From NCBI GenBank assembly GCA_028708605.1, contig JAQVYS010000005.1, positions 25,553-61,312 of the forward strand: a DNA stretch of 35,760 nt, given 5' to 3'. The notes under the pieces are model-generated. The model ran no database searches. It had not been told where the DNA came from and saw only the letters and a program-made list of their open reading frames with translations. The position numbers and the translations under genes were made by a program. The stretch's first letter is position 1. Each line of letters opens with the position of its first letter. Below, in pieces: positions 2,639-26,400 of the stretch. This DNA is from Bacillota bacterium (GTDB lineage: Bacteria > Bacillota > DTU065).

Positions 2639-3751
2639 TTATACCCTTGGAACTCCAGATACAACTGCGTTTGCAAATGAAACTCTCAAGTTACCTACTC
2701 CACCTTTATTTCGATCAGGATGGACTTGGTTTGTCAAAAGAATGATGGCTAAATCGAAGGCCGGATCTAACCACATCGAAGTACCGGTAAAGCCTGTATG
2801 ACCATAGCTCTCTAAAGTCAGTAAAGCTCCTCCGCTCGAGTTCGGATTCTTTTTCATCCAACCAAGACCTCTTCCGGGAGTTAGAGGCGCAGTATGGTTT
2901 TTTGTCATCAGATCAACTGTATCTTTACTAAGAATTCTCTTGCTGTTATAAGTTCCACCAGCAAGAAGCATTAGAGCATAAGATGCAAGATCATCTGCTG
3001 TAGAAAAAAGCCCTGCATTCCCGCTTACCCCACCGATAGCATAAGCGTTTTCGTCATGAACTTCGCCCTTTAGCAGACCCCTTTGCTTGGTAGACTCTGT
3101 AGGCGCTATCCTTACTTGTTTTTCAACGCTTAAGTTTTGTTTAGGGTTGAAAGAGGTATCTTTCATGTCTAAAGGTACAAAGAGTTCTTTTTCAAGAAAG
3201 ACATCTAGAGCCTCACCAGCGACCTTTTCAATGATCAAACCAAGTACAATGTACCCTAGGCAGGTGTAGACGACCTTTGAGCCAGGGCAATATTCTAAAT
3301 CGGACTTAGCTAATGCCTTTTTGTAATCTTCTCTGCCTTCTGCCTCGTTGTAAAGAGGTAGCCAAGCTGAAAAGCCTGAGGTATGAGTAAGCAACTGTAA
3401 AATCTTGACTCGTCTTTTATCCTTAAATTCAGGGAGAAACTTATAAATTGAATCGTCTAGCTTGATCAGCCCCCGCTCTAGCAGCATCATGCATGCAGTT
3501 GTTGTACCAATGCATTTTGTAAGCGATGCAAGATCATAGATTGTGTCAAACGTTAAATCCTCTGGTTCTGGAAGCAAAGCTCTTTTGCCATATGCAAAGC
3601 GGGCGATTATTCTCTTTTGATAGAGGACAAGTGCGACAGCTCCAGGGGCTGCTTGGTTGTCAATTGCATCTATTAAAACCGAGTGAGCTTTTTCAAAAGC
3701 TTTGGGATCTATTCCACAGGATTTTTCCACATAATATTCTAGTTTAGCCAT
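2639..3751 (-). CDS. Serine hydrolase of the beta-lactamase/class C family (AmiE/YbbE-like)
   Basis: SxxK motif in YDLASLTKCIGTT, YxN-like region, GHTGFTGTSMWLDP near the C-terminus. Located next to a NamZ-like gene. Confidence 0.85.
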   Translation of the reverse strand: MAKLEYYVEKSCGIDPKAFEKAHSVLIDAIDNQAAPGAVALVLYQKRIIARFAYGKRALLPEPEDLTFDTIYDLASLTKCIGTTTACMMLLERGLIKLDDSIYKFLPEFKDKRRVKILQLLTHTSGFSAWLPLYNEAEGREDYKKALAKSDLEYCPGSKVVYTCLGYIVLGLIIEKVAGEALDVFLEKELFVPLDMKDTSFNPKQNLSVEKQVRIAPTESTKQRGLLKGEVHDENAYAIGGVSGNAGLFSTADDLASYALMLLAGGTYNSKRILSKDTVDLMTKNHTAPLTPGRGLGWMKKNPNSSGGALLTLESYGHTGFTGTSMWLDPAFDLAIILLTNQVHPDRNKGGVGNLRVSFANAVVSGVPRV

Positions 3752-3776
3752 AACTTACAACGCTCCCAAAAAAATT

Positions 3777-4916
3777 CTAGTACAGCAAAATCGACTTTGC
3801 TTGTTTTACAAAAGCTTGGTTTTCGCTTTCCATCTCTGCCCAGATCTCGTCTGCGGGGACTCCTTTTTTGATCTTTTCTCTAACCGTTGGGTCGCCTGAT
3901 AGAAGGTCAAAAAAGTGGCCATTGTTATTTTCAAGGAACTCAGTTTCGGGATACTTAAAAACTTCGACAAGTAGATAGAGAGCAGTTTTTACTGGCGAAA
4001 AAACCTTATGATCTGTAACATGAATCTGCAAGCCATGGCACGTGACTCCTTTGTGCTTAGAAAAACTAGGTGTAAAAAACGTTGGCCTAAAGAGAACTCC
4101 AGGTAAGCCTAGGCTACTAAGTTTTTCTGTAAGTTCAAAGCTATCTAACCATGGAGCCCCAATTGTTTCAAAGGGTTTTGTTGTACCTCGGCCTTCGGAA
4201 AGGTTTGTGCCTTCAAAAAGACAGGTGCCAGGATAGACAATAGCCGAATCGATGGTAGGTATGTTAGGCGATGGTAAAACCCAGACAAGCCCAGTGTCAG
4301 TATAGTACATCGACCTCTGCCAGAGACTAAGTTTAATAACTTTTGGTTCTTTTCCTACGCCGTGATATTTAGAAAGATAAAGGCCAAACTCTCCCAATGT
4401 AAGTCCGTAGCGGATTGGAATAGAGTAGCCTCCTACAAAAGAGGTGAAGCCTGACTTAATTAGATTGCCTTCAATTGTTAGGCCGCCAAGAGGGTTTGGC
4501 CGGTCTAGGATGACAAATTCCTTGTCAAATTCTCCAGCTGCTTCTTGGGCATAGGCCATGGTGTAGAGAAAAGTATAGTAGCGGCAACCTACATCTTGCA
4601 GATCAAAGATTAAGACATCTACGTCCTTTAGACTCTTTTTGGTTGGTTTTTTGTTAGGACCATATAGCGAATAAATAGGTAAGTTAGTTTTTTTGTCAGT
4701 AGTTGAGCTAACATACTCTCCAGCTTGGGCGTCGCCTCTCACCCCATGTTCGGGGCCAAAAAGTGCAGTTAGCTTTATCCCTGCTTCTAAAAACAGATCG
4801 ATATTTGCTCTTAACTGACTATTTACGCCCGTAGGGGATGTGATTAATCCCACTTTCTTACCAGATAAACTACCTAATTCGTTTTCCAAAAGGTTTTCCA
4901 ACCCTAGCTTAATCAT
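3777..4916 (-). CDS. namZ: DUF1343 family protein, exo-beta-N-acetylmuramidase NamZ-like
   Basis: GLITSPTGVN, LFGPEHGVRGDAQAGE, DVLIFDLQDVGCRYYTFLYTM, ILDRPNPLGG and EGTNLSEGRGTTKPFE motifs typical of YbbC/NamZ. Confidence 0.9.
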   Translation of the reverse strand: MIKLGLENLLENELGSLSGKKVGLITSPTGVNSQLRANIDLFLEAGIKLTALFGPEHGVRGDAQAGEYVSSTTDKKTNLPIYSLYGPNKKPTKKSLKDVDVLIFDLQDVGCRYYTFLYTMAYAQEAAGEFDKEFVILDRPNPLGGLTIEGNLIKSGFTSFVGGYSIPIRYGLTLGEFGLYLSKYHGVGKEPKVIKLSLWQRSMYYTDTGLVWVLPSPNIPTIDSAIVYPGTCLFEGTNLSEGRGTTKPFETIGAPWLDSFELTEKLSSLGLPGVLFRPTFFTPSFSKHKGVTCHGLQIHVTDHKVFSPVKTALYLLVEVFKYPETEFLENNNGHFFDLLSGDPTVREKIKKGVPADEIWAEMESENQAFVKQAKSILLY

Positions 4917-10167: not shown

Positions 10168-10983
10168 TTACTTAAGATAATTTAATCTCATTTTAGCTTT
10201 TACAGGCAGATGATCCGAGTAAAGGGAGTTAATTGTATGCACAGTTAAAAGGTCAAAACGGTTGCCGTAGAGGATGTAGTCGATCTGCACGCTAGGTCTA
10301 GCTGAGGGGAAGGTTGGCTGATTGTTGGCAACTTTTAGATTAAAATGCTCAACCAGCGAGGTCACATTTTTAGGTGTGGTGTTAAAATCACCAAGGAAAA
10401 AATCTAGGTCTAGCTGGAGACTTTGTAGCTTTTCTAATTGTCTAGTGCGATCTCCTTCTAAAGTTGCAAGGTGGGTTCCCAAGACCTTAATTGTCTGACC
10501 ATTCCAGTTGATGTCTACAATTAGTGCGACTCTTGGCTCAATAAATGGACTTGTTGGCAGATAAATTACTTGGGTATCTACGATAGGATACCTACTAAGT
10601 ATTGCGATGCCATAGGAGCCTCCTAGGGTAAAAAGCCCTGCTTTTTCTAAAGTAGGAGCGTAAGCGTGGTAGTTTAGGCCAGTATTCCTTTTTAGAAACA
10701 CAAGCTGGTCTAGATACCTAGACCTACTAGAGTAGTTACGATCCACTTCAGAAAGAAAGACAATATCAGCGTCTTTTATCAGCATTTTCATGTTTTCTAA
10801 ATTGAGGTTGTTTTGGCTGTCAACTCCATGATGGATATTGTAAGTTGCTACAGTGAGAGTTTCTTCTTTTGTAGGAGTTTCAATTACTGGCACCAGCACT
10901 TTAGCTGATTTGCTGTAAAAGGCGAGTCTGCTAAAGAGGGTGGTTAAGGTTATGAGAAAGAAGGCAGTAAGAAGTTTTTTCAT
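10168..10983 (-). CDS. Endonuclease/exonuclease/phosphatase (EEP) family protein, secreted or membrane-anchored
   Basis: VATYNIHHGVD, FLSEVDRNY, VLGTHLATL, LDFFLGDFNTTP and YSDHLPVKA motifs. Confidence 0.93.
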   Translation of the reverse strand: MKKLLTAFFLITLTTLFSRLAFYSKSAKVLVPVIETPTKEETLTVATYNIHHGVDSQNNLNLENMKMLIKDADIVFLSEVDRNYSSRSRYLDQLVFLKRNTGLNYHAYAPTLEKAGLFTLGGSYGIAILSRYPIVDTQVIYLPTSPFIEPRVALIVDINWNGQTIKVLGTHLATLEGDRTRQLEKLQSLQLDLDFFLGDFNTTPKNVTSLVEHFNLKVANNQPTFPSARPSVQIDYILYGNRFDLLTVHTINSLYSDHLPVKAKMRLNYLK

Positions 10984-11035: not shown

Positions 11036-11758
11036 TTATGCTTCCTGCCTTTTCTGACCTTCCAAATCTAGGAATTGTAACAGTTTGGGGAGCTCATCTT
11101 CAGCTTTCTTATGGGAGACAGATACTGCTCTGTCATCGTATGGAGTAGGCTCAAGATTAATAATCGCCATTTTTTTGGCATGAAGCGGTAAAAAGCATGC
11201 AGGGCTTACAGCTAAACTAGAACCAATAACTAAGACTAAATCAGCTTTGTGAGTTTCTTCTTCTGCCTCAAGATAAGTCTCAGGCATCCCATCTCCAAAT
11301 AGGACGACCTTTGGCCGGATGAGACCTCCACAAATGCATTTAGGTAGTGTGGTTGAAAATAGAAGAGGAGATTCCTTTTGGCACTCTAAGCAATACCCAG
11401 CAAAAGTTGTTCCGTGGATCTCCAAAACTCGTTTACTACCAGCCCTTTGATGAAGTTCATCGATGTTTTGTGTTATAACAGCTTTTACATAACCTGCTTC
11501 TTCTAATTTGGCAATGGCGAGATGGGCTTTGTTGGGTTCTGCTTTTTCGAACTCTGAAAGCATATGAAAATAAAAATCATAAAATCCCTTAGGATCTCGG
11601 TAAAATGCCATTGTAGAAAGGGCATCCATAGGATCTACCTGCTGCCAGAGACCTTTTGGTCCTCTAAAATCAGGGATACCGCTGCCGGTTGAAACGCCTG
11701 CACCAGTAAGAACAACGGTGTAATTACTTTCTTTAATAAGTTTTGCTAATGTCTCCAT
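11036..11758 (-). CDS. cobB: Sir2 family NAD-dependent protein deacylase
   Basis: VVLTGAGVSTGSGIPDFRG, TQNIDELHQRAG, EIHGTTF, zinc cysteines CLEC...CICGG, and GSSLAVSPA. ATG at 11758 has AGGAG upstream. Confidence 0.93.
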   Translation of the reverse strand: METLAKLIKESNYTVVLTGAGVSTGSGIPDFRGPKGLWQQVDPMDALSTMAFYRDPKGFYDFYFHMLSEFEKAEPNKAHLAIAKLEEAGYVKAVITQNIDELHQRAGSKRVLEIHGTTFAGYCLECQKESPLLFSTTLPKCICGGLIRPKVVLFGDGMPETYLEAEEETHKADLVLVIGSSLAVSPACFLPLHAKKMAIINLEPTPYDDRAVSVSHKKAEDELPKLLQFLDLEGQKRQEA

Positions 11759-12018
11759 GTAAATCACTCCTATGTATCTTAATGGTATACTTACAAGCTG
11801 TAAAAAATTGGAAATCAGTTATAGGAAAATAGAGTGAAACAGTTACACTTGGTAAATTAAGCTCTTTTAGATTATATCAGAAGAATACAATGCCTGTTTT
11901 AAAAGCCTAAAGATGAGAAAATAGCCTACACAGGAGCGTTTTCCTAGGTTTTCTTTTTTTGGAAGTCGCTAAAAGAGAGGCGTTTTAGTAGCTAAAAATC
12001 TAGAGCTGTGTAGTTAAA

Positions 12019-12063: not shown

Positions 12064-13062
12064 CTATTTTTTTTCGCTTTGTTTACGATCTTGTTGTTCT
12101 TGCATGATAGAAGGGTTTGCAGTTCCAGATGCAGGTTTGATGGCATCAGTAGGGCACTCAGGTACGCAACGGTTACACCTAATACAATGCTCTAAGATGT
12201 GATAGACACCATCTTCTTTGATAATTGCATCTACTGGGCAGACCTTGATGCAGCGATCGCAGCTAATACACTGTTGTTTGGATACCGTAAGTTTAGTAAA
12301 AAGATCCATGATAGTTTGCGTTAAAGATTTAGAAGAAGGCACGCAGAACTCTCTTAGCGCTTCTATCAAGGGGATTTCACGTCCTTCACTTGCAGTTAGT
12401 CTTTTTTTGTGCTCTACAATATAAAGGAATAGGTCGGATGTAGTACGACCAGGGAATTCATCAATCAGGCCTTCTTTTTCAATGATATCTGCAAGAGGCA
12501 GGTAAACATCATCGTGCCATTTTTTTGCTGCTTCTTTGAGTGTGGGTTCTTCTTTATACCTTTCATGCATATATTCCCGATAATTTTCAATTTCCTTGAG
12601 CAGAGCCTGATAATGGCCAATTTCGGTTAGTTTGATGTCTGCAAGGCTAGTTTTGAAACTAAAATAAGACTGTTCTCTAGTTAAGATGCCTTCGGGGGTA
12701 TCTGCGGAAGGAAGATATTCTGTAACCCTTGCTTTAATCTTTTTCCATCCTAGACGCCTTGCCGCTGCAACGCGGTGGTTGCCGTCTACGATGTAGTAAT
12801 CGTCTTTGATCTTATATAGTTCAATAGGTGGAAGTTCTTTGCCAGTAATCATTGCGGCTTCAATCGAACGCAGCCGCATAGGGCTATGGTTGGTTTGCAG
12901 TTGGAATTTTCGATCGAAATCTCTCCAGCGTCCAACACTACCCACGATTTTTATTAAATCTACTTCCAAAACGCCAAGATTTCTACGAGCTACGACCTTC
13001 TCTTTTGCATACTCCTCAGCGAAGTTCTTCATTATGTTTTTCTTACCAAAACCAAGTACCAT
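12064..13062 (-). CDS. ParB/Srx-like N-terminal domain protein fused to a C-terminal 2x[4Fe-4S] ferredoxin domain
   Basis: ParB-like box IVDGNHRVAAARRLGWKKIKARV. Middle helical region with KKWHDDVYLPLADIIEKEGL. C-terminal CISCDRCIKVCPVDAI and CIRCNRCVPECPTDAI (two CxxCxxCxxxCP). Confidence 0.88.
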   Translation of the reverse strand: MVLGFGKKNIMKNFAEEYAKEKVVARRNLGVLEVDLIKIVGSVGRWRDFDRKFQLQTNHSPMRLRSIEAAMITGKELPPIELYKIKDDYYIVDGNHRVAAARRLGWKKIKARVTEYLPSADTPEGILTREQSYFSFKTSLADIKLTEIGHYQALLKEIENYREYMHERYKEEPTLKEAAKKWHDDVYLPLADIIEKEGLIDEFPGRTTSDLFLYIVEHKKRLTASEGREIPLIEALREFCVPSSKSLTQTIMDLFTKLTVSKQQCISCDRCIKVCPVDAIIKEDGVYHILEHCIRCNRCVPECPTDAIKPASGTANPSIMQEQQDRKQSEKK

Positions 13063-13127
13063 AGTTTAAGGTAGGCTCGAGGGTTGAGCTGGACCTGTTC
13101 ACCACCTTTTGGTGTGTTTTAAAGATC

Positions 13128-13715
13128 TTAGAGTTCTAGTAGATAATAGCCAACGCAGTTTATTACTTTGGTCTTGCCTATCGTATGTTCTCGTTCAATG
13201 TTTAAACCATATTCAAGATGATAGTGCCCATGCAAAAAAAACTTCGGTTGGTATTTTTCGATAAACTTACGATAGGTTTGAAAGCCCCTGTGACAATCAT
13301 CAACATTTTCATAAAGACCTTCAGGAGGGGCATGAGTGACTACTATATCTAAGTGGGGGTTAAAAAAGAGTTTCCGTCTAATTCCTTTGACTCTTTTATA
13401 CATCTCTTTTTCAGTATATTGATAGAGTTTATGATTATAACGAATGCTACCTTCAAATCCTACAAGGCGAAGGTTATTGAAGGTTACAATTCGCGTATCT
13501 AAATTAGTGCCCTTAGGGCGTTCATACTTATAATGGAAATCATGATTGCCAGCCACGTAAAAAAGCGGTGCATTGGCTCTTTGGGATAGTGAATTGAGAT
13601 AAGATGATCTTAGGTCTCCGCAAGAGATTATACAGTCAATTCCTTGTAGAATGTTGTTTCCTGCATCTTCTTGTAGATTTGGTACCTCTTTATCACTAAC
13701 GATTAGAATTTTCAT
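13128..13715 (-). CDS. Calcineurin-like metallophosphoesterase
   Basis: ISCGDLRSSYL, VAGNHDFHY, VVTHAPPEG and FLHGHYHLEYG metal-binding motifs. Confidence 0.93.
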   Translation of the reverse strand: MKILIVSDKEVPNLQEDAGNNILQGIDCIISCGDLRSSYLNSLSQRANAPLFYVAGNHDFHYKYERPKGTNLDTRIVTFNNLRLVGFEGSIRYNHKLYQYTEKEMYKRVKGIRRKLFFNPHLDIVVTHAPPEGLYENVDDCHRGFQTYRKFIEKYQPKFFLHGHYHLEYGLNIEREHTIGKTKVINCVGYYLLEL

Positions 13716-13900: not shown

Positions 13901-15196
13901 CTAGAGTTTTTCAATAAACCGCACATAATCCTTTTGCTTTTGCTGCAAATCTAGCGTCATTTTCTTTGCGGCTTTTCTGATTGACTCTTCTGCGTTTTTG
14001 CCTTCTATTACTGTTTCATAGGCAGCAAAGTTTATCAGACGCTGAGCTGCAGACTCTGGAAGTAGAGCATAAGCTGGTGCTTTAGCTGTTCTAGCTTGAC
14101 TTAAGACTACAGAGACATGTTCTTTTGGGATTGGTATCTCATTAAGAGCCTTAAGGTTTGCAGGAAGGAAAATCGTACCGGGGACCTCGTTTGCTACTCT
14201 TTGGGCCATCTTGCCTTGGATCTCTGGCGACAAAAACCATTTAAGCCAGACAAAAGCATCATCGACCCTATCTGCGTCTTTAAATAAGGTAAAAGACATA
14301 CCACCAACATAGGAGGCGTGATTAATAGTTCCGTCACTTGTTTTTGTTCCTGGAACTAAAGCGAGATTCCATTTACCCTCAAGTTCTGGCATGGCCGTTT
14401 TGATAGTCGCATATTGCCACATTGAAGAGAGCATTAAAGGTAGATCACCTTCTCTAAAACCGACGAAAGATTCAGCAGTTTTAGGAATTTGGCGCCTGGT
14501 AAACAGCTCTGTAAAGGCTTTAAATCCAGCTATCGACTCTTTAGAGTCAAGCCCCGAGGCAGTTAACTCCTCATTATACCAATCTCCTCCGTTTTGCCAA
14601 ATAAACATTGAAGCATCAACGTAGAGGAAATCTCCTTGACCTTCATCAAAGCCAAAAGCAGTATAGAAGTTTCGATTGCTTGCTTGTAGTTTTGGCAGAA
14701 TAATGTAAAGCTCGTCCCAAGTTTTTGGGACATCAATACCTAGTTTTTGTATGACATCGCTGCGGTAGAGTAAAGGGTAGAGCAGCATTTGCATTGGGAG
14801 ACCGAAGTTATTATCCTTATACTCAAAAGCTCGGACGCAGCCTGGGTACATTTGGTCTTTAATCTCTTGATAGTCGTTACCGTAAAGAGAAAGATCCACG
14901 GCAACACCCCTAACCCCTAAGTCAGCAGAACTTAAAAGGCTAGTAATGCCGATTTCCGGGACATTTCCACTTGCTGCAGAGAGAAGATAGGTTTGTTCAA
15001 AGCCACTCCAGGGAATGGTGTATATCTGCACGTCAATTCCCGTTTTTGGAGTAAATTCTGTATCTGTTAACTCTTGAATAATTCTGTTCCACTCAATAAG
15101 CTGTGGAGACCATACAGCAACGGGAGAAGCCACAGTACTTATTGTTAGAATAACCAATAAGCAAAGAATTAAAAGAAATCCAGGGCGTTTTGGCAT
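13901..15196 (-). CDS. Extracellular solute (sugar-type) ABC transporter substrate-binding protein
   Basis: SBP_bac_1-like architecture: N-terminal signal sequence, TEFTPKTGIDVQIYTIPWSGFEQTYLLSAASGNVPEIG, LPMQMLLYPLLYRSDVIQKLGIDVPKTWDEL. Confidence 0.9.
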   Translation of the reverse strand: MPKRPGFLLILCLLVILTISTVASPVAVWSPQLIEWNRIIQELTDTEFTPKTGIDVQIYTIPWSGFEQTYLLSAASGNVPEIGITSLLSSADLGVRGVAVDLSLYGNDYQEIKDQMYPGCVRAFEYKDNNFGLPMQMLLYPLLYRSDVIQKLGIDVPKTWDELYIILPKLQASNRNFYTAFGFDEGQGDFLYVDASMFIWQNGGDWYNEELTASGLDSKESIAGFKAFTELFTRRQIPKTAESFVGFREGDLPLMLSSMWQYATIKTAMPELEGKWNLALVPGTKTSDGTINHASYVGGMSFTLFKDADRVDDAFVWLKWFLSPEIQGKMAQRVANEVPGTIFLPANLKALNEIPIPKEHVSVVLSQARTAKAPAYALLPESAAQRLINFAAYETVIEGKNAEESIRKAAKKMTLDLQQKQKDYVRFIEKL

Positions 15197-21964: not shown

Positions 21965-22420
21965 GTGAAAGAAGTGCGCAGCTTAAGTGACTTCATTGAA
22001 AAGCATATTTTAGAGCTCCTAAGTGAAACACAAGACGACTATATTGAACTACAACGCAGAGAGTTAGCTGAGACATTTCGCTGTGTACCTTCACAGATCA
22101 ATTATGTCCTCCAAACCCGTTTTACCCCCGAAAAAGGTTTTGTTGTAGAAAGCCGTAGGGGCGGGGGAGGATATATTAGGATAGTCAGACTTTTTGAAGA
22201 GCCTGATTGGAAATTAGTCAAAGCCAAACTAAAATCAAACGTTAAACGAGACGAAGTAATACCTATTCTTGACATCTTGGTAGAAGAAGATGTCCTTAAA
22301 CCTAAAGAAGCGAGATTAATTGACTTGATTATTAAAAGTGAAGAAGAAAACCTTGATGATAGCCTCAGGGCTATGCTTTTTAGATCACTTATTGTTTTAA
22401 TTGGAAATTTAAGGAGGTAG
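21965..22420 (+). CDS. ctsR: Transcriptional repressor of class III stress genes
   Basis: SLSDFIEKHILELL, RRELAETFRCVPSQINYVLQTRFTPEKGFVVESRRGGGGYIRI (HTH and glycine-rich wing). Followed by mcsA-mcsB-clpC. Confidence 0.96.
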   Translation: MKEVRSLSDFIEKHILELLSETQDDYIELQRRELAETFRCVPSQINYVLQTRFTPEKGFVVESRRGGGGYIRIVRLFEEPDWKLVKAKLKSNVKRDEVIPILDILVEEDVLKPKEARLIDLIIKSEEENLDDSLRAMLFRSLIVLIGNLRR

Positions 22421-22426
22421 AAAGAT

Positions 22427-22936
22427 ATGTTGTGTGACAGGTGTAACTTAAACCCTGCTACAGTGCATTTAAAAACTATCTTAAATGGTATCGTAGAAGA
22501 AAAGCATCTGTGTCAAAAATGTGCAAAAGAAACTGGTCAGTTGCAGATGCTAAATGTCACAAACCCATTTAGCTCGTTCTTTGAAACCCTACTTGGCTCT
22601 ATGGAATATCAGCCTACACTGCTTAGAAGTAAATGTGGCGTGTGCAACTTAACTTTTGACCAATTTCGCAGAACTGGGCAACTTGGATGTCCGTCATGTT
22701 ATAGAGAATTTAATAATGAATTGCAACCTATCCTAAGAAGGATTCAGGGTGATGTCACTCACCGGGGTAAAATCCCAGTAAGACAAGGAGGCAATTTAAG
22801 CCTAAAGCGTCAGATTGAAAAATTAAGAGATGAACTGAAAGATCTTGTAAAGCGTGAGGAATACGAGAAAGCAGCTAAGGTTAGAGATGAGATTAAAGAA
22901 CTAGAAGAAAAGGCAGGGGGCAATCAAAATGGCTAA
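22427..22936 (+). CDS. mcsA: McsA, CXXC zinc protein/McsB activator with UVR motif
   Basis: CDRCNLNPATVHL, CQKCAKETG, CGVCNLTFDQFRRTGQLGCPSCY, C-terminal UVR motif REEYEKAAKVRDEIKELEEK. Confidence 0.95.
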   Translation: MLCDRCNLNPATVHLKTILNGIVEEKHLCQKCAKETGQLQMLNVTNPFSSFFETLLGSMEYQPTLLRSKCGVCNLTFDQFRRTGQLGCPSCYREFNNELQPILRRIQGDVTHRGKIPVRQGGNLSLKRQIEKLRDELKDLVKREEYEKAAKVRDEIKELEEKAGGNQNG

Positions 22937-23969
22937 AAAAGATATTTTAGATCTGGTTACTCCCTGGATGATCAAAGACGGCCCAGATGGTGATGTGGTT
23001 CTTTCAAGTAGAATTCGCCTAGCAAGAAACCTTAAGGATCAGCCATTTCCATGGCATGCAAGCCTAGAAACTAGAGAAAAAGTTAGAACTAAGATTAAAA
23101 AGGCAATCAATCCTGAAGAATTTGATTTTCTTAGCCTAGAGGATATTAGCTCTCTAGAGCGAGAAAATATGATGGAAAGCCATCTACTTAGTCCGCAGAT
23201 TATTGCAGATCCTGCAGGTAGAGGCGTAGCTATATCAAAAGATCGACTTTCCAGTATTATGGTTAACGAAGAAGATCACTTAAGAATCCAATCGATCGCC
23301 CCTGGCCTTGATTTAGATGTTGCAATGAAAAAAGCCAATGCTATCGATGACCAAATCGAGAAAGTCCTAGATCTAGCTTTCGATGAAAAGTATGGCTATC
23401 TGACAGCTTGGCCTACTAATGTAGGTACAGGTATTAGAGTATCAGCAATGGTACACCTTCCAGGTCTTGCCCTTACAAATAACATGCCAAGAACACTAAA
23501 CTCTGTCAATCAGCTTGGTATGGTAGTTCGCGGTATCTATGGCGAAGGTACAGAAGCTCTCGGTAACCTCTATCAGATCTCAAACCAGAGGAGCCTAGGC
23601 AGAAGCGAAGAAGAGTTTCTAAAAGACTTAGCTACAGTTGCTACTCACGTTATTGGTGAAGAGCGTAAAATTAGAAATATTGTCATTGAGAAAAACCGTG
23701 CTTTTCTTGAGGATAAAGTCCATCGCTCCTTAGGTACACTAAAAGAAGCGAGGCTAATAGGTACTAATGAAGCCTTAGCTCTACTTAGTGATGTGAGACT
23801 AGGGATAGACCTTGGCCTGATAAGCGACGCGATAAAACCAACGGTTCAAGCTTTGATGCAGATTATTAGACCTGCTCATTTACAAAAGTATTTGGGCAAT
23901 AACTTAGACCCTGAGATGCGGGATTACTATCGCGCAACTGTAATCAGGGAAGAATTAGCAAAGGAGTGA
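22929..23969 (+). CDS. mcsB: Protein-arginine kinase
   Basis: [44 protein letters not shown], phosphagen-kinase-like fold motifs. Operon context. Confidence 0.96.
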
Positions 23970-23976
23970 CAAAAAT

Positions 23977-26400
23977 ATGTTCTTTGATCGTTTTACAGAA
24001 AAAGCAAAAAGGGTACTAGCAGCTGCTCAAGAGGAAGCAAGAAATATGGGCCATGACGTTGTCGGAACTGAGCATGTTCTTCTTGGGCTAATGAGCGTCT
24101 CTGATGGAGGCGCAAGCAAAGCAATGACTTCAAGTGGACTATCTTTAGAAGCTATAAAAGAACGCATCGAAGAGATTATTCCTGTGGGAACTAGTGGAGA
24201 ATCAACCCAGATTCCAATGACAGCCAGAGTAAAAACCATACTTACTTTGGCCTTTGAAGAAGCTAGAATACTTGGTTACCCTTATGTAGATACAGAGCAT
24301 ATTCTCCTCGGCCTTTTAAGGGAAGGGGAAGGAGTGGCGGTTAACGTTCTTAGAAGTTTTGGAGCAGAACCTACAAAACTAAGAGAGCTAGTCATAAATC
24401 AATTGAGAAACCAGGGAGATACTGGCGACAAAGAGACTAGGAGACCGAGAAACAAAAACACCCCTACACTTGACTCATTTGGCCGCGATTTAACTGAAAT
24501 GAGCGAAGAGGGCAAGCTTGATCCTATTATAGGTAGAGATCAAGAGATCCAAAGAGTCATTCAAATTCTTAGTCGGCGTACTAAGAACAACCCAGTCTTA
24601 ATCGGTGAGCCTGGCGTTGGTAAAACAGCTGTTGTCGAAGGATTGGCTCAAAAAATCACTGCTGGGGATGTTCCAGAAAGCCTTAAGGATAAAAGAGTAG
24701 TTGCTTTAGACATGTCTGGTGTAGTAGCTGGCTCTAAGTTTAGAGGCCAGTTTGAAGAACGCCTTAAAAAAGTAATAGATGAAGTAAAGACAGCAGGGAA
24801 TGTAATTCTCTTTATCGACGAGCTCCACACTCTAGTTGGAGCCGGAGCTGCAGAGGGTGCTATCGATGCTGCTAATATCTTAAAACCGGTTCTAGCCAGA
24901 GGAGAGTTGCAAACAATCGGTGCAACAACCATAGATGAATACCGCAAGCATATTGAAAAAGATGCAGCTCTAGAGCGAAGATTCCAGCCGATTATGGTTG
25001 GAGAGCCTACAGTGGAAGATACAATTCAGATTCTTTATGGCTTAAGAGATAGATATGAAGCCCATCACAGGGTAAAGATCACTGATGAAGCGATAGAGGC
25101 TGCAGCCAGATTATCTGCTAGGTATATCTCAGATAGGTTCTTGCCTGATAAAGCCATAGACTTAATCGATGAGGCCTCATCAAAAACTAGACTTGCAACC
25201 TTAGTGACTCCTCCTTCTGTTAAGGAGATTGAGGAAAAGCTCGCAAACCTTAAACGTGAAAAAGAAGTAGCTATTCAAAATGAAGAGTTTGAAAAAGCAG
25301 CTGATCTACGTGATCAAGAGCAAGAGATAGAAAAACAACTAAAAGATCATCAGTCAGATATTGAAAAGGAGAGAAGCCTTACCTCTATTGAAGTTAGAGC
25401 AGATGATATTGCATCAATAGTTGCTAGCTGGACTGGTATTCCTGTAACAAAGCTCACTCAGGAAGAAAGTAAAAAGCTACTCGATTTGGAGGAAGAACTC
25501 CACAAAAGGGTTATTGGTCAAGATGAAGCTATCGATGCAGTTAGTAAAGCTGTGAGGCGCTCTCGCTCTGGACTAAAAGATCCCAAACGCCCTGTTGGTT
25601 CGTTTATCTTCCTTGGGCCAACAGGTGTAGGTAAAACTGAGCTTGCTAGAGCGTTAGCTGAGGCAGTCTTTGGCGATGAGGATGCTATGATCAGACTTGA
25701 TATGTCAGAATACCAAGAAAGGCATACGGTCTCAAGGCTGATTGGTTCGCCTCCTGGATATGTGGGTTATGATGATGGAGGCCAGCTTACAGAGCAGGTA
25801 AGACGGAAACCATACTCTGTTGTACTCTTTGATGAAATCGAAAAGGCCCATCCTGATGTTTTTAACGCACTTCTTCAGGTACTCGAAGATGGTCATCTTA
25901 CAGATAGTAAAGGTCGGAAGGTTGACTTTCGAAATACTATCATCATCATGACCTCTAACGTTGGAGCTACAGATATCAGAAACAAAGGTGGTTTAGGATT
26001 TAGGACCTCAGAGTCTGGAGCCTATGAGTCAATGAGAGATAAGGTTATGGATGAATTAAAGAAGACCTTTAGACCAGAGTTTCTTAACAGACTAGACGAA
26101 ATTATGGTTTTCCATGCTTTGAACAAAGATCAGATTTCACAGATCGTTGATCTGATGATTAATGAGCTTAAAAGCAGGGTCTTAGATCAAGGTTTGCATC
26201 TAGAAGCTACAGATAAAGCAAAGAGTGTTATTGTGGAACAAGGTTATGACCCTGACTTTGGTGCAAGACCACTTAGACGTGCGATTCAGCGTCTAGTGGA
26301 GAATCCTTTGAGCGATGAGATACTCTCAGGGAGGTTTAAGTCAGGAGACACTGTAGTTGTAGATAGTGAAGAAGGCAAAATCGTCTTTCAACAGGAATAG
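23977..26400 (+). CDS. clpC: ATP-dependent Clp protease ATPase subunit ClpC
   Basis: Clp_N repeats, two Walker A motifs ([30 protein letters not shown]), UVR motif [20 protein letters not shown]. Confidence 0.97.

Follow-up and report, generated by a model that had tools for sequence, protein, structure and literature searches.

We analysed a stretch of 35,760 nucleotides, hereafter called the window, in which a 332-aa protein with homology to the ParB superfamily is encoded next to a predicted metallophosphoesterase. The features of this locus are as follows (coordinates, strand, identity, and in brackets the evidence used):

10168..10983, minus strand: endonuclease/exonuclease/phosphatase-fold protein, context in the window's own class only (Pfam; same gene order in loci L039-L042)
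11036..11767, minus strand: Sir2-type deacylase, the next gene downstream, conserved in the window's own class only (Pfam SIR2; same order in L039-L042)
12064..13062, minus strand: ParB/sulfiredoxin-fold + DUF4032 + 2x[4Fe-4S] protein, 332 aa (ORF, Pfam, relatives, AF2 model)
12154..12186, minus strand: ferredoxin motif II, CIRCNRCVPEC, with C293, C296, C299 and C303 (Pfam Fer4)
12238..12270, minus strand: ferredoxin motif I, CISCDRCIKVC, with C265, C268, C271 and C275 (Pfam Fer4)
12346..12609, minus strand: DUF4032 helical region, residues 152-239, located where ParB has its HTH (Pfam PF13224; conserved residues)
12703..12993, minus strand: ParB/Srx-fold core, residues 24-120 (hhalign against canonical ParB; Foldseek to Noc/ParB, Srx and SerK)
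12772..12786, minus strand: DGNHR box, residues 93-97, counterpart of ParB GERR, Srx GGCHR and SerK DGHHR (99 homologues; SerK alignment)
13128..13715, minus strand: metallophosphoesterase (MPPED2/Dbr1-like), 195 aa, 65 bp upstream of the ParB-like gene (Pfam Metallophos; AF2; Foldseek)
13901..15196, minus strand: sugar-type ABC solute-binding protein, context only and no constant partner (Pfam SBP_bac_1; absent beside the pair in L041)

A preliminary description, made from the letters of the DNA, had placed a ParB-like reading frame at 12064-13062 and gave no strand; the reading frame is real and lies on the minus strand, the plus strand being interrupted by stops throughout. In the genome collections that we used, which are samples and consist in part of MAGs, the protein is encoded in all five genomes examined of the window's class, which come from one family and four genera; the other four versions are 78-86% identical to it over the core, and three family members are 82-86% identical over residues 1-311. 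Where dS is unsaturated, dN/dS is 0.02-0.04 (Nei-Gojobori) in both the core and the Fe-S part. Given this low dN/dS and its presence in all five class genomes, 12064-13062 is a genuine gene, subject to strong purifying selection, rather than an ORF that arose by chance. An 87-aa ORF with a TTG start on the plus strand (12806-13069), antisense to the beginning of the gene, is most likely a chance mirror ORF.

The ParB/Srx-fold core and the DUF4032 region

The ParB/Srx-like box that had been noticed in the N-terminal half corresponds to IVDGNHRVAAARRLGWKKIKARV at residues 91-113. The Pfam model ParB_N matches residues 77-115 with 15.7 bits, which is under its cut-off of 26.3, so our fold assignment rests on profile comparison, the AF2 model and Foldseek; no NCBIfam model names the ParB-fold core. 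A PHROG ParB profile matches the window protein (2e-10), and an hhalign comparison of a profile of 14 relatives with canonical ParBs of the same phylum gave a probability of 97.5% over residues 24-174, the aligned part being the ParB N-domain plus the helix after Box III, with the HTH outside it. The AF2 model, built with 44 homologues as input and, like our other structure models, of a monomer, has a pLDDT of 84.8, with values >90 across most of the core. Using this model, Foldseek returned Noc, ParB, PadC, sulfiredoxin, SerK and SbnI: Noc/ParB came top by E-value (~1e-5), sulfiredoxin gave the highest TM-scores for the core alone (0.56-0.66 to target), and the SerK entries, over 90 columns, fitted to roughly 3.3-3.6 A. 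The best single-sequence match in the PDB was the SerK homologue 1vk1 (E 0.05), and the best match in a profile search of the PDB was Spo0J (0.0017). The comparison with the ParB, sulfiredoxin, SerK and Noc folds that the preliminary description had proposed thus has a consistent outcome, as hhalign, AF2 and Foldseek agree on a ParB/Srx fold.

The D, G, H and R of the DGNHR box are invariant in all 99 homologues, and the position between G and H (residue 95) is N in 84 and H in 15 of them, but in none is it the Cys of sulfiredoxin or the Glu of ParB. We take this box to be SerK-like. The free serine kinases SerK (TK0378; PDB 5x0b/5x0e, 1vk1) and SbnI share with the window protein the ParB/Srx fold, the DG[HN]HR box and the want of an HTH, whereas they have neither DUF4032 nor an Fe-S tail, both of which are found here; we know of no phosphoesterase gene partner for SerK or SbnI. 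Residues E115 and D48 are also conserved; the SerK alignment spans only the DGxHR half, and no equivalent of the catalytic Glu30 was identified in it. The Pfam search also gave a weak match to DUF1015, and our literature search found no paper on a connection between DUF1015 and serine kinases.

The middle helical region mentioned in the preliminary description proved to be DUF4032 (PF13224, 25.4 bits against a cut-off of 23.8), the match covering only model positions 78-158 of 163, or half of the model. This match is common to all class relatives and is found with E <0.001 in 19 of 44 homologues, and W182, P189 and D210 are near-invariant among the 99 aligned. Our literature search found no paper that names DUF4032, and thus no described function.

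These results bear on the possibility that the protein is a CTP-dependent DNA clamp of the ParB kind, or a transcription regulator, and that its Fe-S clusters modulate its binding to DNA. Residues 24-174 are homologous to the N-domain of the canonical CTPase clamps ParB, Noc and Spo0J, with the alignment running through the helix after Box III and Noc/ParB leading the Foldseek E-values, and several orphan ParBs are transcription regulators according to a survey from 2025 on the ParB-CTPase fold (PMC12704722). However, the alignment with ParB stops at residue 174 and does not reach the HTH, in whose place the DUF4032 helices stand; all 99 homologues have N or H where GERR has its catalytic Glu, the E-N of ParB Box III is not conserved among them, and the constant neighbour of the gene is a phosphoesterase and not parA. 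We therefore consider a DNA clamp or regulator of this kind unlikely. Likewise, sulfiredoxin has a similar core (TM up to 0.66), but the position of its catalytic Cys is occupied by N or H throughout our alignment. On the fold results and the box residues together, the protein belongs to the ParB superfamily, but it is not a ParB of the partition type, and not a sulfiredoxin either.

The iron-sulfur tail and its counterparts in other lineages

The two CxxCxxCxxxCP motifs reported for the C-terminus are real (C265/268/271/275 and C293/296/299/303). The Fer4 model scores 49.5 bits against a cut-off of 21.1 (E 3e-13), Pfam 4Fe-4S models fall within residues 256-327, and ferredoxin-type matches from Pfam and NCBIfam together fall within residues 249-327. 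The same two motifs occur in the 2x[4Fe-4S] ferredoxin domains of RnfB, EFR1 and LdpA; unlike in those proteins, the ferredoxin domain here forms the C-terminus of a ParB-fold protein, and a sister class has the ligands of one cluster.

All eight tail cysteines are also present in the three unmasked class relatives. Among 33 aligned proteins, the 24 one-cluster proteins of the sister class keep C275, C293, C296 and C299 without exception (24/24), whereas C265, C268, C271 and C303 are kept in none of them (0/24). In 2x[4Fe-4S] ferredoxins each cluster is held by three Cys of one motif and a fourth from the other, and by this rule the four Cys kept in the sister class are the exact ligand set of ferredoxin cluster II. 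We also considered the f55-type tail as a degraded ferredoxin and rejected this on the column count, as exactly one cluster's ligands are kept. The retention pattern supports an Fe-S site that would be selected for, with two clusters being dispensable, and gives strong, if indirect, evidence that the tail site would bind a cluster. All Fe-S proteins (34 rows) lie on one side of a single branch of our tree with an SH-aLRT of 80, which is compatible with, and only moderately supports, a single origin of the Fe-S tail; the one-cluster proteins group in one clade (support 100/99). In one locus (L169) all four tail Cys have been lost together and in another (L055) there is no tail, so the Fe-S module is inessential to the core.

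Outside these lineages the C-terminus differs. A GTDB scan yielded at least 555 confirmed relatives, and the 80 of them that we kept come from Bacillota, Desulfobacterota, Spirochaetes, Chloroflexota, Aerophobetes, Acetothermia and others; Desulfacinum and Bellilinea are examples of carriers in culture. The 2x[4Fe-4S] module occurs in proteins of the window's class and of two further Bacillota lineages (f40 and f97), relatives in Desulfobacterota and Spirochaetes carry an Lrp/AsnC ligand-binding domain (AsnC_trans_reg) at the C-terminus, those in Chloroflexota and one in Deinococcota carry universal-stress domains (Usp), some other relatives consist of the core without any C-terminal module, and a related ParB-like protein (L031) has a PnrA/Bmp substrate-binding domain. 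The survey of domain architecture suggested earlier thus shows a constant core, present in many phyla, with a C-terminal module that varies by lineage. Two kinds of divergent relative were seen besides. The ParB-core-only proteins of about 125 aa in family f16 and its relatives (L050:7433-7810, L051:4351-4728 and L171-L174) have no DUF4032, Fe-S tail or adjoining phosphoesterase; some matches in this set run past in-frame stops, and the phosphoesterase lies elsewhere in genomes G016 and G315. The 562-aa ParB-like protein of Cetobacterium (L036:3905-5593) has a long C-terminal extension without a Pfam match, and its gene has the phosphoesterase and a gene for glycogen phosphorylase as neighbours.

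Two views of the tail other than a regulatory one have to be weighed. According to the first, the protein is a sulfiredoxin-like redox enzyme in which the ferredoxin part feeds electrons to a reduction on the ParB/Srx fold, as the sulfiredoxin TM-scores, the best per domain, and the usual role of a two-cluster ferredoxin as an electron relay might suggest. This is improbable, as the catalytic Cys position argues against it, a whole sister class has only one cluster, other lineages keep the core and the phosphoesterase without any Fe-S module, and Pfam recognised no other redox cofactor domain in the core. According to the second, the clusters are only structural, serving folding or oligomerisation of a constitutive ParB-fold kinase or NTPase that acts with the phosphoesterase. 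That the cluster number can fall to one, and that ligands are occasionally lost (L169, L055) with the core intact, would fit this view; however, ligand or stress sensor domains (Lrp/AsnC, USP) occupy the same position elsewhere, which suggests a regulatory slot, and we regard purely structural clusters as rather unlikely. The exact retention of one cluster's ligands fits a sensor or structural tuning better than electron supply. Of the two roles that the preliminary description had offered for the clusters, redox sensing or electron supply, the former, in the sense of sensing or tuning by a selected Fe-S site, is thus retained and the latter has become the less likely.

The metallophosphoesterase partner and the gene neighbourhood

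The preliminary description had overlooked the partner metallophosphoesterase, as well as the lineage-swapped modules and the wide spread of the core. The phosphoesterase gene lies directly upstream on the same strand, at a distance of -4 to 65 bp, in every one of the 33 Fe-S loci whose upstream sequence is long enough, and across phyla 52 of the 74 loci have it directly upstream; roughly one in three of the homologues surveyed, most of them from Chloroflexota, have no adjoining phosphoesterase. Of 399 genomes from the phylum, 20 carry the core, 24 carry the phosphoesterase and 19 carry both (hypergeometric 6e-27, uncorrected for shared ancestry), and in four genomes (G016, G315, G384 and G404) both are present on different contigs. 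In four of the five phosphoesterase-only genomes the phosphoesterase adjoins a ParB-PnrA fusion, and such a fusion beside the phosphoesterase gives the pair yet another sensor-type domain. In loci L207, L210, L211 and L212 (genomes G469, G396, G415 and G222), the same phosphoesterase subfamily stands directly downstream of a ParB-like/PnrA-Bmp fusion. In Aerophobetes (L124:4703-6127), the phosphoesterase and then the ParB core are read in one 474-aa frame, apparently a natural fusion of the partners, provided that the assembly has not dropped a stop. The same pair is found on Tsukamurella and Cetobacterium plasmids, the Tsukamurella pair behind a sugar ABC transporter.

The AF2 model of the phosphoesterase has a pLDDT of 91, and MPPED2 and Dbr1 are its nearest relatives by structure and by sequence, being the top matches in both kinds of search. 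Its metal motifs D-x-H, GD, GNH[D], H and GHxH are kept except that E/V replaces the His of DxH; by analogy, the ligands of the beta site would be complete and the alpha site one ligand short. Dbr1 has an altered alpha site too, with Cys in place of Asp (PMC4176325), and differs from the partner in that the change is at the Asp and not at the His of DxH. The phosphoesterase also matches the PADLOC candidate PDC-S10 (E 3e-15), which would speak for the pair being part of an anti-phage defence unit. However, no PADLOC model matched the ParB-like part, the neighbours are of metabolic and housekeeping types, no phage record matched, and all class genomes keep the gene. A defence role was rejected for lack of a defence-like context despite the PDC-S10 match, and we hold it to be very improbable.

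As noted in the preliminary description, the canonical parA-parB context is absent: there is no parAB among the neighbouring ORFs searched with Pfam, and the only other ParB_N match in the genome is weak and lies on another contig. We tried the ABC solute-binding protein and the Sir2 protein as partners and rejected them, since neither travels with the pair outside the window's class in the loci examined. As the genes outside the pair differ by lineage, the context points to no substrate. Phage records gave no match to the ParB-like protein and only four plasmid records matched, so the gene is unlikely to be cargo of mobile elements.

A proposed reading of the pair as a two-gene unit

We read the window protein as belonging to a widespread ParB-fold family, as yet uncharacterised, that works in a two-gene unit with the metallophosphoesterase, and as being regulated by its Fe-S module; to this reading we give a probability of about 0.5. 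The best reading of its activity is that of a nucleotide-dependent ParB-fold enzyme or switch, tuned by redox, iron or oxygen and acting together with the phosphoesterase. The core would bind a nucleotide through the DGNHR loop; by the chemistry that we prefer, tentatively, it would then transfer a phosphoryl group as SerK does, and a second, less favoured possibility is that it would serve as a nucleotide-driven switch. In either case the phosphoesterase would remove or turn over the product or ligand of the core, and the Fe-S cluster would adjust the core to the redox state, to oxygen or to the supply of iron, a part that Lrp/AsnC, USP or PnrA-type domains would play for other signals elsewhere. 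Against this reading stands the 2025 survey's result that nucleotide binding was undetected in 17 of 28 ParB-fold proteins tested (PMC12704722).

The recurrence of the pair across phyla with different sensor-like tails suggests an unstudied signalling or control module. More generally, and at somewhat below even odds, the ParB/DUF4032 core and the MPPED2/Dbr1-like phosphoesterase may constitute an unrecognised, phylum-spanning module for signalling or metabolic control, in which the core would make or read a phosphorylated or nucleotide signal, the phosphoesterase would erase this signal, and the balance would be set by a C-terminal sensor that differs by lineage (4Fe-4S, Lrp/AsnC, USP or PnrA-type), with the window protein as the redox/iron-sensing version.

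The preliminary description knew of no characterised ParB with a 2x[4Fe-4S] module, and our literature search likewise found no described family with this fusion. DndC of the Dnd system is a 4Fe-4S protein. In contrast to the pair described here, the Dnd system has its ParB-like and 4Fe-4S parts as separate proteins, acts in DNA phosphorothioation and is not known to have a phosphoesterase pair. Its DndB is a ParB-fold protein that binds ATP/GTP, according to the 2025 survey (PMC12704722). The survey reports many fusions and the binding of ATP, CTP and GTP for the ParB-CTPase fold; the search behind it used PF02195, whose cut-off the window protein fails, and ferredoxin, 4Fe, universal stress, metallophosphoesterase and DUF4032 do not appear in its main text as far as available (PMC12704722). 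What we have here is an orphan ParB-fold fusion with an Fe-S tail, with possibly a new two-gene module behind it. ParB-fold proteins are now seen as a broad nucleotide-binding class in which most described fusions concern DNA or RNA, and the present fusion ties the fold to an Fe-S module and a dedicated phosphoesterase. The natural series of two clusters, one cluster, none, or another sensor domain makes the function testable, and should the pair prove to be a unit for signalling, it would represent a widespread, uncharacterised bacterial system.

Two other gene groups of the window may be mentioned. On the plus strand, an ATP:guanido phosphotransferase of the McsB type (22929-23969) is followed by a Clp-type AAA protein (23977-26400), and with two small upstream ORFs the region 21965-26400 looks like a ctsR-mcsA-mcsB-clpC protein-arginine-kinase operon. 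On the minus strand (2639-4916), a NamZ exo-beta-N-acetylmuramidase adjoins a beta-lactamase-family protein, which suggests muropeptide recycling.
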